From the NCBI GenBank assembly GCA_020721585.1, contig DYMK01000001.1:248001-312000 (forward strand): a DNA stretch of 64,000 bases, given 5' to 3'. Origin of the DNA: Sulfuricurvum sp. (lineage in GTDB: Bacteria > Campylobacterota > Campylobacteria > Campylobacterales > Sulfurimonadaceae). Positions 341 to 37,320 of this stretch are shown here, one piece after another. Each line of letters opens with the position of its first letter. Within the stretch, counting starts at the first letter, position 1. The notes beneath the pieces were generated by a model. It had not been told where the DNA came from. It was given only the letters and a program-made list of their open reading frames with translations, and searched no databases. Both the position numbers and the translations under genes were made by a program.

Positions 341-781
341 TTATAGTTTTTGCCACGATCGTTTATGAACGCGAATTCGCTCAGTGTTCAAGTTGTGATC
401 GCTCACGGTCACATCAATTAATACACGTGTGTTACTCCCAGTATTACTCGCTAAAGTATGCGTAGCAGTGCAAGATGCAGGTTTGGCACCGATAAAAGAA
501 TAGCTTAGTGATGCATTAATGTCATAAGCAGCATTCCCACTAGCATCCTTTACGGTAATATTAAGATTTTCAAGGCACGTTGCCCCTTGTGCCCGCATAA
601 CAGCAAATTCAGTGGCACTATCGGCTAATAACTCTGCTTGTGCTTTTAGGTAATTGTCCCCCATCGATTTACTTCCAACTGAGGTATTACTTAGCAATAA
701 AACTCCCCCTAAAGATACCAATACCATCACAAAGATGGCTAATATCATAGCAAATCCAGCTCGTTGATTAATATCGGACAC
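341..781 (-). CDS. Small type IV pilin-like/PilX- or MshP-like protein
   Basis: A short protein with one hydrophobic N-terminal helix (GFAMILAIFVMVLVSLGGV) directly after an Arg-Ala-Gly, followed by an amphipathic stretch with SKSMGDNYLKAQAELLADSA. This is the layout of PilX/MshP-type minor pilin proteins, which lack the usual Glu at position +5. I place the start at the GTG at 781 because AAAGGAGAG lies 5 bases upstream; a longer reading from the ATG at 808 is possible but would overlap the previous gene by 41 bases. With the GTG start it overlaps by 14, suggesting translational coupling. It is the last gene of a cluster with two other pilin-like proteins and a giant secreted protein, the arrangement of mshD-mshO-mshP-mshQ in MSHA pilus loci. 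Function beyond pilus or secretion-fibre assembly is inference. Confidence 0.65.
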   Translation of the reverse strand: MSDINQRAGFAMILAIFVMVLVSLGGVLLLSNTSVGSKSMGDNYLKAQAELLADSATEFAVMRAQGATCLENLNITVKDASGNAAYDINASLSYSFIGAKPASCTATHTLASNTGSNTRVLIDVTVSDHNLNTERIRVHKRSWQKL

Positions 782-1721
782 GAACTCTCCTTTCACGACA
801 AATTTCATCCTCTACCTTCGTACTGTTGCTTAAATCACTATTTAACCCTTGCATACAAATTTTAAGGGTATGCACCAATCCTCGATCTGTTAATGCAGGA
901 TCTTCCCCATAGTCACTCATATTATAATTCACTCCAAAACTGGCTACATTACGTCCTAAAATATTCTTTTTTCCTTGGGTATATTTTTCTCCCTTCCATG
1001 GACGGAAATTGCTATACATAGTGAAGTTCCCATTATCTAAAACTCGAAACGCGTACCCTGTCCGAATAAGATATTTTTGGGTACCATCCATAGCATTGGG
1101 ATTAGAATTATTATTCAGGGTTAATGTTGTTGCCGTAAAACTATTAATGGTTTTAACCCCAAGAATAGTACCACCAGCATTATCCCAATTATACCGTCGA
1201 CAACTGTTTGTTTGATCTCTTGGTGAAGTAAGATTTTTATCATACACAGCCGAGCTAACCAAGTTGGAGGTTGGATACAATGCGGTAATAATCGTATTGG
1301 ACATGGCATAATTAGCATCAAGAGCTGTCAACATAAAACCAGTCACTTTTACATCTTCACTCCAACCGGGAGTTCCCGCTGTGTGCAAACTCTCTTCATC
1401 TGCTGCTAAAAAGGCTGTCGTGTAATCACTATTCGGTACAGCCTTATTTAACGCACCATCACAGGCTCCCGTTAAACTACCATCGCTTGCATCTTTATCC
1501 AAGTTCACCATAGAGTTCATAACAGCAGTTTCAAAATACTTGGAAGCTTGCTCAAGAATGTGATCTGCTTGTGCTACTCGTTTACTGTATTCCTGAGTAC
1601 GATAAATTCCTTCATAATAAACACGTATCGCTTCTAAGGATATCCCCCCGACGATCCCTAAGACTACAATCACAACAAGAAGCTCAATAAAAGTAAACCC
1701 GTGACGATATTGCTGATCCAT
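768..1721 (-). CDS. Type IV prepilin-like protein (MshO-like)
   Basis: The N-terminus is a canonical prepilin signal: a short basic leader, then G-FTFIELLVVIVVLGIVGG with cleavage expected after Gly9 and the conserved Glu at +5. PilD-type prepilin peptidase should cut and methylate it. The 317-residue length and long C-terminal globular part, with a pair of cysteines near the end (KICMQ and DEICRER), fit a minor pseudopilin such as MshO or a GspJ-type subunit rather than a major pilin. AAAGGAAATTAA precedes the ATG. The start directly abuts the stop of the upstream pilin gene (1722), so the two are co-transcribed and probably coupled. Assignment to the MSHA type rests on gene order and size. 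Confidence 0.75.
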   Translation of the reverse strand: MDQQYRHGFTFIELLVVIVVLGIVGGISLEAIRVYYEGIYRTQEYSKRVAQADHILEQASKYFETAVMNSMVNLDKDASDGSLTGACDGALNKAVPNSDYTTAFLAADEESLHTAGTPGWSEDVKVTGFMLTALDANYAMSNTIITALYPTSNLVSSAVYDKNLTSPRDQTNSCRRYNWDNAGGTILGVKTINSFTATTLTLNNNSNPNAMDGTQKYLIRTGYAFRVLDNGNFTMYSNFRPWKGEKYTQGKKNILGRNVASFGVNYNMSDYGEDPALTDRGLVHTLKICMQGLNSDLSNSTKVEDEICRERRVRVRY

Positions 1722-22001: not shown

Positions 22002-23519
22002 ATGAAGAGAATAACCACGATTGGTGTGGGAATATTGATGATGGCGATAAATGGTCATGCTAATAATAATGTTACTGCAGAGTCACAAGCTGCTACAAAA
22101 CACAATCAGGCTAAAGCAACTGCTACTTCGGGTGCAAAAGTCGATCCCAAACATCCTAATGCTGCTGCGGGTGCAAAAGTTGATCCCAAACATCCTAATG
22201 CTGCTGCGGGTGCAAAAGTTGATCCCAAACATCCTAATGCTGCTGCGGGTGCAAAAGTCGATCCCAAACATCCTAATGCTGCTGCGGGTGCAAAAGTCGA
22301 TCCCAAACATCCTAATGCTGCTGTTGCTGGGGCTGCTGTAGGTGCAACTGCTGTTGGAGCAAGTGCTGCTACTACCGGAGCCAAGGTGGATCCAAAACAC
22401 GCCAAAGCTGCGGTAGCTGAAGGTTTCAAAATGTACCAAAAACACAATTATGCTAAGGCAATTGAGTTATTTACCCAAGGGTGTGATGGGGGAAATGGAC
22501 GTGGATGCTATAACTTAGGAACCATGCATGGGACAGGTCTTGGGGTGCAAAAAAATGACCCTAAAGCGGTTGAATTGTATACCAAAGCGTGTACCCTTAA
22601 AGATCCTAAAGGGTGCTTTAATATGGGGGTTATGTACGATAATGGAATCGGGACAAAAATAAATAAAAGCAAAGCGGTTAATGCGTATACCAATGCGTGT
22701 GATGGGGGTGAAGTCAAGGGATGCTCGAACTTAGGAACTATCTACAGCAAAGGGACAGGGGTTAAAAAAGATCCTGCTAAAGCATTAAGTTTGTACTCTA
22801 AAGCGTGCAGTAAAGGGTTTATCACTGCGTGTACCAATATGGGTGTGATGTATGCTGCTGGTTTAGGAACTCCTAAAGATCCTGCCAAAGCCACCCAAAT
22901 CTTGACCGATGCGTGTAATAAAAAAGACAAAGGGGCGTGCGCCGATTTGGCATGGGTAAAAAGTAAAAATACCAGTGCTAAAGCGGATAAACTCGAAACG
23001 GTTGATTTGTATACCAAAGCGTGTAATGAGGGAGATGCCAAACGTTGTGCTGCATTGGGGAGTATGTACGATAAAGGAAACAATGGAGTAAAAAAAGACC
23101 CTAAAAAAGCGACTGAGTTTTTCACTAAAGCGTGTGATAAAGGGGATGCAAAAGGGTGTACCGGTCTTGGATCCATGTACGATAAAGGTCTTGGTGGGCT
23201 CAAACAAGATAAAGCCAAAGCATTAACGTTGTATACCAAAGCGTGTGATAAAGGGGAAGCCAAAGGGTGTTCTGCTTTAGGTAGCTTGTACGATTTAGGT
23301 ACTGGGGTAAAACAAGATAAAGCCAAAGCTCTTACGTTGTACACCAAAGGATGCGATAAAGGGGATGCTGATGAGTGTGTTAGTTTAGGAACAATGTATG
23401 AACGCGGTACAGGGATGAAAATGGATAAAGTTAAAGCCCAAAAATTGTATCACAAAGCGTGTGAGTTGAAAAATGACCTTGGTTGTCGTAACTACGCTAC
23501 ACTTGAAAAAACAATGTAA
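22002..23519 (+). CDS. Cys-rich Sel1-repeat protein with N-terminal tandem repeats
   Basis: A 505-residue exported protein: signal peptide MKRITTIGVGILMMAINGHA, then five copies of a 13-residue unit (GAKVDPKHPNAAA) from about residue 44 to 108, an Ala/Gly/Val-rich linker, and ten Sel1-like repeats. Each Sel1 unit has Cys pairs spaced as ACxxGxxxGC, the pattern of Helicobacter Hcp proteins, in which the paired cysteines form disulfides within each repeat. That makes a periplasmic or secreted solenoid for protein binding likely. AGGGAG precedes the ATG. The gene appears monocistronic. The biological partner is unknown. The DPKHPNAAA section is probably an extended, hinge-like spacer rather than part of the solenoid. 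Confidence 0.85.
   Translation: MKRITTIGVGILMMAINGHANNNVTAESQAATKHNQAKATATSGAKVDPKHPNAAAGAKVDPKHPNAAAGAKVDPKHPNAAAGAKVDPKHPNAAAGAKVDPKHPNAAVAGAAVGATAVGASAATTGAKVDPKHAKAAVAEGFKMYQKHNYAKAIELFTQGCDGGNGRGCYNLGTMHGTGLGVQKNDPKAVELYTKACTLKDPKGCFNMGVMYDNGIGTKINKSKAVNAYTNACDGGEVKGCSNLGTIYSKGTGVKKDPAKALSLYSKACSKGFITACTNMGVMYAAGLGTPKDPAKATQILTDACNKKDKGACADLAWVKSKNTSAKADKLETVDLYTKACNEGDAKRCAALGSMYDKGNNGVKKDPKKATEFFTKACDKGDAKGCTGLGSMYDKGLGGLKQDKAKALTLYTKACDKGEAKGCSALGSLYDLGTGVKQDKAKALTLYTKGCDKGDADECVSLGTMYERGTGMKMDKVKAQKLYHKACELKNDLGCRNYATLEKTM
22131..22325 (+). repeat. 39-bp tandem repeat, five copies
   Basis: Five in-frame 39-bp units beginning GGTGCAAAAG, differing only at isolated bases such as GTC/GTT in the Val codon, and in the last codon of the fifth unit. 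The near-identity at synonymous sites shows recent expansion. Copy number changes would lengthen or shorten the N-terminal spacer of the Sel1 protein without shifting the frame. Confidence 0.95.
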
Positions 23520-34948: not shown

Positions 34949-35005
34949 GTCATGCTGAACTTGATTCAGCATCTCTTTTAGACCCTGAGTCACGTTTAGT
35001 ATGAC
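34949..35005. repeat. Dispersed composite palindrome, CTGAA-type
   Basis: GTCATGCTGAACTTGATTCA (then GCATCT) has a perfect ATGCTGAA/TTCAGCAT stem, joined by CTTTTAGACC to a second, degenerate unit (CCTGAGTCACGTTTAGTATGAC-like). The double-unit layout recurs at 36474-36534 and 58138-58205. Confidence 0.75.
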
Positions 35006-35087
35006 ACAATCCAGTTAAAAAATCCTTCTCGGTAACACTCAAATACCAACCCTGATAGGTAAACAAAAAGTTTTATAACGTTTTATT

Positions 35088-35093: not shown

Positions 35094-35149
35094 TTAGATA
35101 AGGAAGACTAGAATTGAAACTGCCTCATATAACACGCAAGGAGCTACCC

Positions 35150-36435
35150 ATGAAAAAACACGTCGCCCGTCTCTCTCTCTCTCTCTCTCTCTTCTAGCAC
35201 TAACCACCACCCAAGTATCGGCTGCTGATTTATTTAGTATCGATGGTTCGGCCAATGGAACCAGTGCGTATGTCGGAGCCAACAACCTAACGCAATTGAT
35301 CAATTTGGTCACCCAAACCAGTGGAATACAATCGTATTTGCCCACCTACACCGATACGTCTGCTGCGAATTTGAATGCTAATTTCCGTGGTTTACCCGTT
35401 TCGTTTAGCTATGCGGCTAACAGTACCACCCTTATTATGTCTGTCCCTGCCATTGGCTTAAACCAATCTTTTACCGGTGCTACCCGTGCTGATAGCCAAA
35501 GTCTCTTAACCGATTGGTTTAAATCATCAGGTCAAGGTGCCATAGAGCAATTTATGAAAAAATTAGCCGCCGTCTCTCCTGTCGATCCGATCGCGGGGAA
35601 TCCAAGCTCGTTGATGTCACAAAGCAGTACGGCGAGTTTTAACAATGGTGTCAGTGCCGTGGTTGAGCAAACTCCCTCTACAAATCTTGCCAATGTCTCT
35701 ATTATTCGCGCCAATACGGCTCCCTTGGGTACATCCTACCTCGCAACCAGTCAAGCGGGACTGGAAAGTAAACTCTATTCATTGCCTTTGGCATACTCTT
35801 TTAGTTTCAGTGATAACCCAGGTAAAAAAATCAACATTATGCTCCCTATATCACTTTCAGATACCCAAGGGGCAAAAGCAGTTTCGTTGGGATTAGGGGT
35901 GAGCATGAACTTCCCTATCCAAAAAAATTGGGTTCTCACCCCAGCATACAGCTATGGTGTTTCAGCGTCAGTGGATATGGGATCGGTGGGACAAGTCGAA
36001 ACAGGAAGTGTGACCAGTGCCTTTAAACTTGATACTGCTAATGGATATGCCATTATGGGCAATATGGTGGGATACACCCAAACAACGACACGATTGTATT
36101 CAGGAGCGTACGCTTTTGATCCAGGGATTAAAAATACGGTCTATAAAAATGGGTTGATTTATGGATTTAATACCGACTCCTTTATGCCCCATTCCTCTTT
36201 GGAAGTGTTTGCGACCAATACTCTCTTTACTGGAACAGAACTCTATCTTAAAACCTACAATGAGTATGGATTCTCGTATGGTTTGACTAAAATTCATGAA
36301 GAGAGTCTAGGCGATGCTGATTTAGCCCAAAAAGTGATTCGACAAACCGTGAGTAAACTACGCGTAGGATTGACCTATCTCGATGGAGGAAGCAAAACCA
36401 AAGGGGTACAGCTTAATTTTGGATACAGTTTTTAA
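35150..36435 (+). CDS. Phase-variable outer membrane protein, OFF in this sequence
   Basis: The ATG at 35150 follows AAGGAG by 8 bases and opens a signal peptide (MKKHVARLSLSLS), but an 11-unit CT repeat throws the frame into a TAG at 35195. Removing one CT (or adding two) joins it exactly to the long downstream frame and gives a complete signal peptide ending QVSA before ADLFSIDG, and a product of about 427 residues. The mature protein has alternating beta-strand patterns, no Cys, and ends in Phe (QLNFGYSF), the C-terminal signature of an outer membrane beta-barrel. The downstream frame alone could only start at a TTG at 35296, without a signal peptide. Repeats in this position switch Helicobacter outer membrane proteins such as OipA on and off. 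A sequencing slip is the alternative. Confidence 0.8.
35171..35192 (+). repeat. (CT)11 dinucleotide repeat in signal-peptide codons
   Basis: Eleven uninterrupted CT units coding alternating Leu-Ser within the hydrophobic core of the signal peptide. With 11 units the frame is broken; with 10 or 13 it is open. This is the classic design of a slipped-strand contingency locus. Confidence 0.97.
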
Positions 36436-36473
36436 GTTCTACCCTATCATTGCGGACTCGATCCACAATTTTT

Positions 36474-36534
36474 AGACCCTGAATCAAGTTCAGGGTGACA
36501 AACCCTGTCATTCCCATGAAAACGGGAATCCAGC
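36474..36534. repeat. Two adjacent dispersed palindromes
   Basis: AGACCCTGAATCAAGTTCAG (then GGTGAC) at 36474-36499 has a perfect CCCTGAA/TTCAGGG stem. A GC-type unit, GTCATTCCC..GGGAATCCAGC, follows at 36507-36534. Both unit types of the family thus occur side by side in the gap between two outer membrane protein genes. Confidence 0.75.
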
Positions 36535-36636: not shown

Positions 36637-37320
36637 ATGATGTTTAAAAAAAGTTTATTAGCCCTCTCATTGAGTGCCTCTATGGCATCGGCTGCTATGC
36701 TATTAGGATTTGGTGCAGAGGCAGATTATTATGCTCCTGTCGCTAGCGGTACGTTTGGGTACACCAGTAATGGAACAACCAGTGCGACCCATTTTGACAG
36801 TACGAGTCAAGGGACGTATCAAGTGGGGGCGTTTTTTGAACATCCGGTTCCTTTGATTCCTAATATCCGTATCGATGCCACACCGCGCACGTCATTTACG
36901 GGTTCTAATGGCGCGTTGGGAACCAATACGGTCTCCATTAACCAAACGGACATTACGCCGTATTACGAAATTTTGGACAATGTCGTTGAATTGGACATTG
37001 GGGTAACGCTCAAAATGTTGGATGTCACCGTAGGGGGAACCGCCAACCAAACCTTAACTCAAGCGATCCCCATGGGATATGTTGCTGGAGCGATTAATCT
37101 CGTGGGAACAGGGCTTCATTTGATGGGAAATGTAAAATATTTGGGTCACAACAGCGATTATTTTATGGATGGTCGGGTGAAAGCGGTTTGGGATATTTCC
37201 AAAGGATTCCAAGCAGAAGTGGGGTATCGCCAAGAGTCATTGCAACTTAATAACCATTTTGGAGTCACTTCAGATGTCAAAATTCAAGGACCGTTTGCAG
37301 GGTTAGCGTATACATTCTAA
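36637..37320 (+). CDS. TIGR04219-type outer membrane beta-barrel protein
   Basis: A 227-residue protein with signal peptide MMFKKSLLALSLSASMASAA and a C-terminal barrel signature ending in Phe (GPFAGLAYTF). The pattern LGFGAEADYYAP, then PNIRIDATPRTSF, DITPYYEILDNVVELDIGV and DGRVKAVWDISKGFQAEVGYR matches the TIGR04219 family of Campylobacterota, whose function is unknown. AAAGGA precedes the tandem ATG start; the second ATG is equally possible. It follows the phase-variable barrel gene by 201 bases that hold two repeat units, so it probably has its own promoter (TATGAT near 36551 is a candidate). Confidence 0.85.
   Translation: MMFKKSLLALSLSASMASAAMLLGFGAEADYYAPVASGTFGYTSNGTTSATHFDSTSQGTYQVGAFFEHPVPLIPNIRIDATPRTSFTGSNGALGTNTVSINQTDITPYYEILDNVVELDIGVTLKMLDVTVGGTANQTLTQAIPMGYVAGAINLVGTGLHLMGNVKYLGHNSDYFMDGRVKAVWDISKGFQAEVGYRQESLQLNNHFGVTSDVKIQGPFAGLAYTF

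Follow-up and report, generated by a model that had tools for sequence, protein, structure and literature searches.

Layout of the locus

The window analyzed here, a stretch of 64,000 nucleotides from Sulfuricurvum sp., contains a gene for a predicted outer-membrane barrel protein with an eleven-unit CT repeat among its signal-peptide codons (Table 1). Seven codons separate the start codon from the tract, which TRF called at 35170-35192. As assembled, the start frame reads through the repeat and into a stop codon, and the remainder of the gene lies in a second frame, which is free of stops from 35194 to 36432 and is closed by TAA at 36433-36435 after 413 codons. Upstream of the tract, no ATG, GTG or TTG was found for this open frame. 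Its earliest possible start is the TTG at 35296, from which the signal peptide would be missing. A preliminary description of this DNA had reported a strong ribosome binding site at the start, and a start frame that enters (CT)11 and meets a TAG at 35195; these features were recovered by sequence inspection, TRF and translation. The same description gave the downstream frame as open over 379 codons. The frame is indeed open, and the shorter count runs from the first TTG rather than over the whole frame.

Table 1 Features of the window locus and of dinucleotide tracts inside genes of related genomes. Positions without a handle in the first six rows are those of the window.
Feature	Position	Strand	Basis or remark
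Left copy of the 31-nt intergenic repeat flanking the gene	34976-35006	.	Repeat search; 84% identical to 36470-36500
Good ribosome binding site AAGGAG	35138-35143	+	6 nt before ATG 35150; sequence
Start frame, OFF as sequenced: MKKHVARLSLSLSLF*, stop TAG 35195-35197	35150-35197	+	Translation
(CT)11 simple sequence repeat, putative slipped-strand switch, in the hydrophobic core of the signal peptide	35171-35192	+	TRF, shuffles
413-codon open frame plus TAA: rest of signal peptide, N-terminal domain, 12-strand barrel, terminal Phe	35194-36435	+	Translation, family, AF2, fold match
Right copy of the 31-nt flanking repeat	36470-36500	.	Repeat search
Type I HsdS, beside hsdM, its two similar halves separated by an out-of-frame (GA)11	L071:2974-3486, upstream half to about 4060	-	Congener
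Big_5/Lcl lipoprotein preceded by an out-of-frame (GA)13	L205: about 430-1340	-	Another genus in the family
350-aa ORF without Pfam family, put out of frame by (GA)10 that begins at codon 8, seven codons into the gene	L207:1228-2321	-	Another genus
(GA)12, in frame, MBOAT acyltransferase	L065:2184-3623	-	Congener
PAS/HD protein with an in-frame (GA)14 at its start	L072:3654-4520	+	Congener
Response-regulator/PAS/HD protein with (GA)13 close to its start; a GTG start is needed for the tract to be in frame	L066:4632-6842	+	Congener
Shorter (CT)7, in frame, signal peptide of a cytochrome-like protein	L209

A CT tract of this length lies well outside chance expectation. Over 100 dinucleotide shuffles, the window gave a mean of 0.03 matches for (CT)5 and none for (CT)11. 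The tract is the sole CT tract of at least seven units across the 2.29 Mb assembly, and no other CT contingency-type locus was found in this genome. By frame arithmetic, 11 units lead to the stop at 35195 and 10 or 13 units join the frames. The loss of one CT or the gain of two, which had been suggested to complete a signal peptide plus barrel, does so in this arithmetic, giving MKKHVARLSLSLSLLALTTTQVSAA-DLFSID..., which reads as an ordinary signal peptide followed by the mature protein. The signal peptide of this ON product sits where relatives carry theirs. The locus has the layout of a contingency locus, in that a long simple sequence repeat, with a unit that is not a multiple of three, lies at the 5' end of an intact coding sequence, and the tract length is predicted to toggle between the full protein and an early stop.

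If the ribosome or the transcription machinery slipped on the CT tract, the frames would be joined without mutation and a constant low level of protein would result; a repetitive tract just after the start fits this idea. However, the tract has no slippery heptamer or homopolymer, and we know of no such slippage on CT repeats; we consider this explanation extremely improbable.

The next gene, at 36637, matches the TIGR04219 profile (E 7.7e-51), to which the barrel protein itself (P0001) shows no match. Many congeners carry a TIGR04219 outer-membrane gene immediately after rnhB. The barrel gene was not found in this rnhB-TIGR04219 slot in the rnhB-bearing congeners, nor was it found in 40 congeners. 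In the window, the gene is bracketed by positions 34949-35006 and 36470-36500, which form direct repeats (84%) and inverted arms (85% complementary) and are possibly traces of its insertion. From the 31-nt flanking repeats and the scattered distribution of the family we infer that the barrel gene was horizontally acquired.

An unnamed family of predicted barrel proteins

A single-protein scan at E<=1e-3 gave no match in 100 relatives or in the genome contigs, and the family was revealed only by a wider family search and by tblastn on plasmids. It comprises 85 relatives, 84 of which were read for open frames and repeats, spread over Deferribacteres, Pseudomonadota (alpha-, beta- and gammaproteobacteria), Chlamydiae and Myxococcota. 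Four members found by tblastn lie on plasmids of Azospirillum, Thiodictyon and a Rhodobacteraceae strain, and an alignment-based scan of genome contigs kept 80 loci. Within the class the family is rare (a member in 2 of 397 sampled genomes); one member, from the family-wide search, is found in another genus of the same bacterial family (L077, 39% identity). All relatives are at most 41% identical to the window protein.

Sequence searches of Pfam, NCBIfam, PHROGs and the PDB returned no family for the barrel protein. At E<=0.001 it matched nothing in Pfam or NCBIfam, the Helicobacter outer-membrane families included, and six members of the family had no Pfam match, the autotransporter beta-domain included. 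A DPxAGNPxS motif is conserved across the family. The preliminary description had recognized no family for the protein, which is accurate for the names in Pfam and NCBIfam and incorrect in so far as 85 relatives exist. Judged from these searches, the family appears to be unnamed, unannotated and horizontally scattered.

Structure prediction from the single sequence reached a pLDDT of 32. The alignment-based AlphaFold2 model, from 67 sequences, was good, with a mean pLDDT of 92 and a pTM of 0.88. The model comprises an N-terminal alpha/beta domain, a helix at residues 140-159 just after the DPxAGNPxS motif, which is invariant, and twelve strands between residues 177 and 412. Foldseek identified the autotransporter barrels of EstA, NalP, BrkA and EspP, together with FapF, at 9-13% identity. 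Comparison with these structures reveals a shared arrangement in the model, namely a C-terminal barrel of 12 strands, a helix immediately ahead of it and a domain at the N terminus. The window protein differs from them in the low identity, in the lack of a match to the Pfam autotransporter beta-domain among the six members, and in an N-terminal part of only ~150 residues, which may be either a passenger or a periplasmic plug. The model points to a likeness of fold, not to membership of the autotransporters.

The window copy has kept 26 of the 26 columns that are near-invariant in relatives (at least 90% conserved), its root-to-tip distance of 1.69 compares with a mean of 1.53 (sd 0.26) for the family, and no second lesion was found in the 413-codon frame. 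The retention of every near-invariant column makes decay unlikely, and a gene long out of use should not be expected to look like the window copy. The conserved columns and ordinary branch length indicate a downstream gene that is under selection and not decayed. This bears on the alternative of a recently frameshifted pseudogene, in which an acquired gene is being lost and the CT tract is the site of the frameshift. Such a gene would be dispensable, as suggested by its absence from the congeners, and would be out of frame as sequenced, and the fixed signal peptides of the relatives also suit this explanation. The absence of a second lesion, the intact columns and a branch that is not strongly accelerated argue in the other direction, and the 11-unit CT tract is itself reversible, so that 'lost' and 'OFF' would differ only in selection. 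We regard a pseudogene as unlikely.

The preliminary description had held that homologues with a fixed, non-repeat signal peptide would speak against a switch. Taken literally, this is what we observed, as none of the 84 relatives examined has a notable repeat in or just before the signal peptide. Since the relatives are so distant in sequence, their repeat-free signal peptides show the repeat to be lineage-specific, which does not make it inert; phase-variable tracts commonly differ between related species. No relative carries the repeat and the gene is absent from the congeners' site, which suggests that the acquired gene gained the switch in this lineage alone. The fixed signal peptides of the relatives would therefore date the switch rather than abolish it.

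In 13 of the 60 relatives scanned, a CHAT-domain protein, often with TPR repeats, is encoded directly downstream of the barrel gene (L100, L102, L105, L107, L110, L128, L131, L135, L138, L091 and others), and caspase-like or TIR genes are found near the barrel gene in L093 and L094. The barrel and CHAT proteins may act jointly. No CHAT gene was found in the window's own genome.

Dinucleotide tracts and mismatch repair

No MutL domain was detected in the window genome, which is 99.9% complete, by a search that was positive in 11 of 14 genomes when run as a control; a MutS1-type domain is present. Given that MutL was not detected, dinucleotide slippage may escape correction. The same genome contains many poly-G tracts of 8-9 residues and one of 11. 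Two of these were inspected as contingency loci and rejected for want of a switch layout, the 11-G tract (G000:C8:2628-2638) being apparently intergenic and one G9 tract lying mid-gene.

Among 228 genomes of the bacterial family, 16 have CT tracts of at least nine units, with ~20 tracts in all. Tracts of the congeners were read on both strands, and several are coding on the other strand. Six further tracts lie inside genes (Table 1) and the remainder are intergenic. As many of the CT tracts in the genus are intergenic, the presence of a tract alone is no proof of a switch. Some of the coding tracts of the relatives keep the frame and others break it. Phase variation usually acts on restriction specificity, surface proteins and polysaccharide modification. 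Type I hsdS genes that are phase-variable through simple sequence repeats have been discussed as a class (PMC7394358). The congener gene in L071 resembles this class in carrying (GA)11 between its specificity halves, out of frame, and is a candidate phase-variable restriction system on the basis of its sequence. It is a different gene from the window barrel, and its relevance is to dinucleotide switches in the genus.

These tracts also bear on the possibility of a consensus or assembly artefact, in which the true tract would have 10 units (or another count equal to 1 modulo 3) and the gene would simply be ON. The assembly is a draft of 112 contigs, and small indels are known to arise at dinucleotide tracts. 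However, the 22-nt tract fits well inside one short read, and similar out-of-frame tracts occur in three further genes of the family's genomes. Such an error would leave the slippery tract in place, and the locus would remain a candidate switch. An artefact appears very improbable to us.

Tracts from different species (L067, L068, L070, L073 and L207) share the flank GCTCTTC(GA)n, in most cases followed by GTAAA and GC-rich sequence. A small hairpin or element common to them may be the source from which the GA/CT repeats expand.

A predicted translational switch and its setting

We propose that the locus is a reversible translational ON/OFF contingency locus that is OFF in this assembly, the best reading of the data, to which we assign a probability of about 0.78. 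This reading is strengthened by the coding GA/CT tracts in relatives, the constraint on the protein and the failure to detect MutL. Weighing against it are the repeat-free signal peptides of all 84 relatives examined, the MutS1-type domain and the finding of no second CT contingency-type locus in the genome. Slipped-strand mispairing in replication would alter the number of CT units within the signal-peptide codons. With 11 units, or any count that is not 1 modulo 3, translation from 35150 would end after 15 or about 25 codons and the protein would not be exported, which is the predicted OFF state of this assembly. With 10, 13 and so on units, the joined frame would supply a full signal peptide, and a mature protein of ~400 residues (alpha/beta domain, helix and 12-strand barrel) would be sent to the outer membrane. 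The tract length would vary in the population and thereby change a surface protein, a form of bet-hedging that may pay, for example where phage or some other hazard targets the surface. The design put forward in the preliminary description, a CT repeat in the signal peptide acting as a translational ON/OFF switch and OFF here, is borne out by the sequence.

HopZ is a Hop outer-membrane protein with CT-repeat phase variation. In H. pylori oipA (hopH), a CT tract lies in the signal peptide, and the wrong tract length leads to an early stop (PMC10564699). The window gene is like oipA and hopZ in having a CT tract in its signal-peptide codons, where the number of units would decide between a full barrel and an early stop. 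It is unlike them in that the protein is not a Hop relative, having no Pfam match and relatives in other phyla. The parallel with OipA and HopZ that had been drawn earlier is upheld for the layout, which matches oipA, and does not extend to the protein itself. The window switch also belongs to a different and scattered barrel family, in a bacterium outside the Helicobacter lineage, and its variation is one that we infer.

A search for literature on phase variation with Sulfuricurvum or Sulfurimonas found nothing relevant, and we came across no account of this type of switch in the bacterial family; the design of the switch was already known from Helicobacter. From its sequence, we consider the locus to be genuine and well formed, a contingency-type locus whose kind is already known and whose protein belongs to a barrel family not described before. 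Discussion of repeat-driven phase variation has mostly centred on immune escape by host-adapted bacteria. The organism of the window is probably free-living. A putative CT switch on an acquired barrel gene, alongside coding tracts in apparently free-living relatives, suggests that no host is needed, and it makes phage, or other pressure directed at the surface, a cause of switching that can be tested. In addition, an unannotated barrel family with the DPxAGNPxS motif, a 12-strand barrel and a frequent TPR-CHAT neighbour now has an alignment and a confident model.

A wider proposal is more tentative, and we consider it less likely than not. It states both that environmental relatives of Helicobacter run a GA/CT 'phasome' outside animal hosts, comprising the barrel, a surface lipoprotein, an O-acyltransferase, HsdS and PAS/HD proteins, and that the switched barrel represents a new small autotransporter-like family, which gene transfer has spread and which often has TPR-CHAT proteins as partners.

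Elsewhere in the window, positions 22121-22323 hold 5.2 tandem copies of a 39-bp unit (97% match). The unit corresponds to 13 codons, so changes in the length of this repeat would keep the frame.
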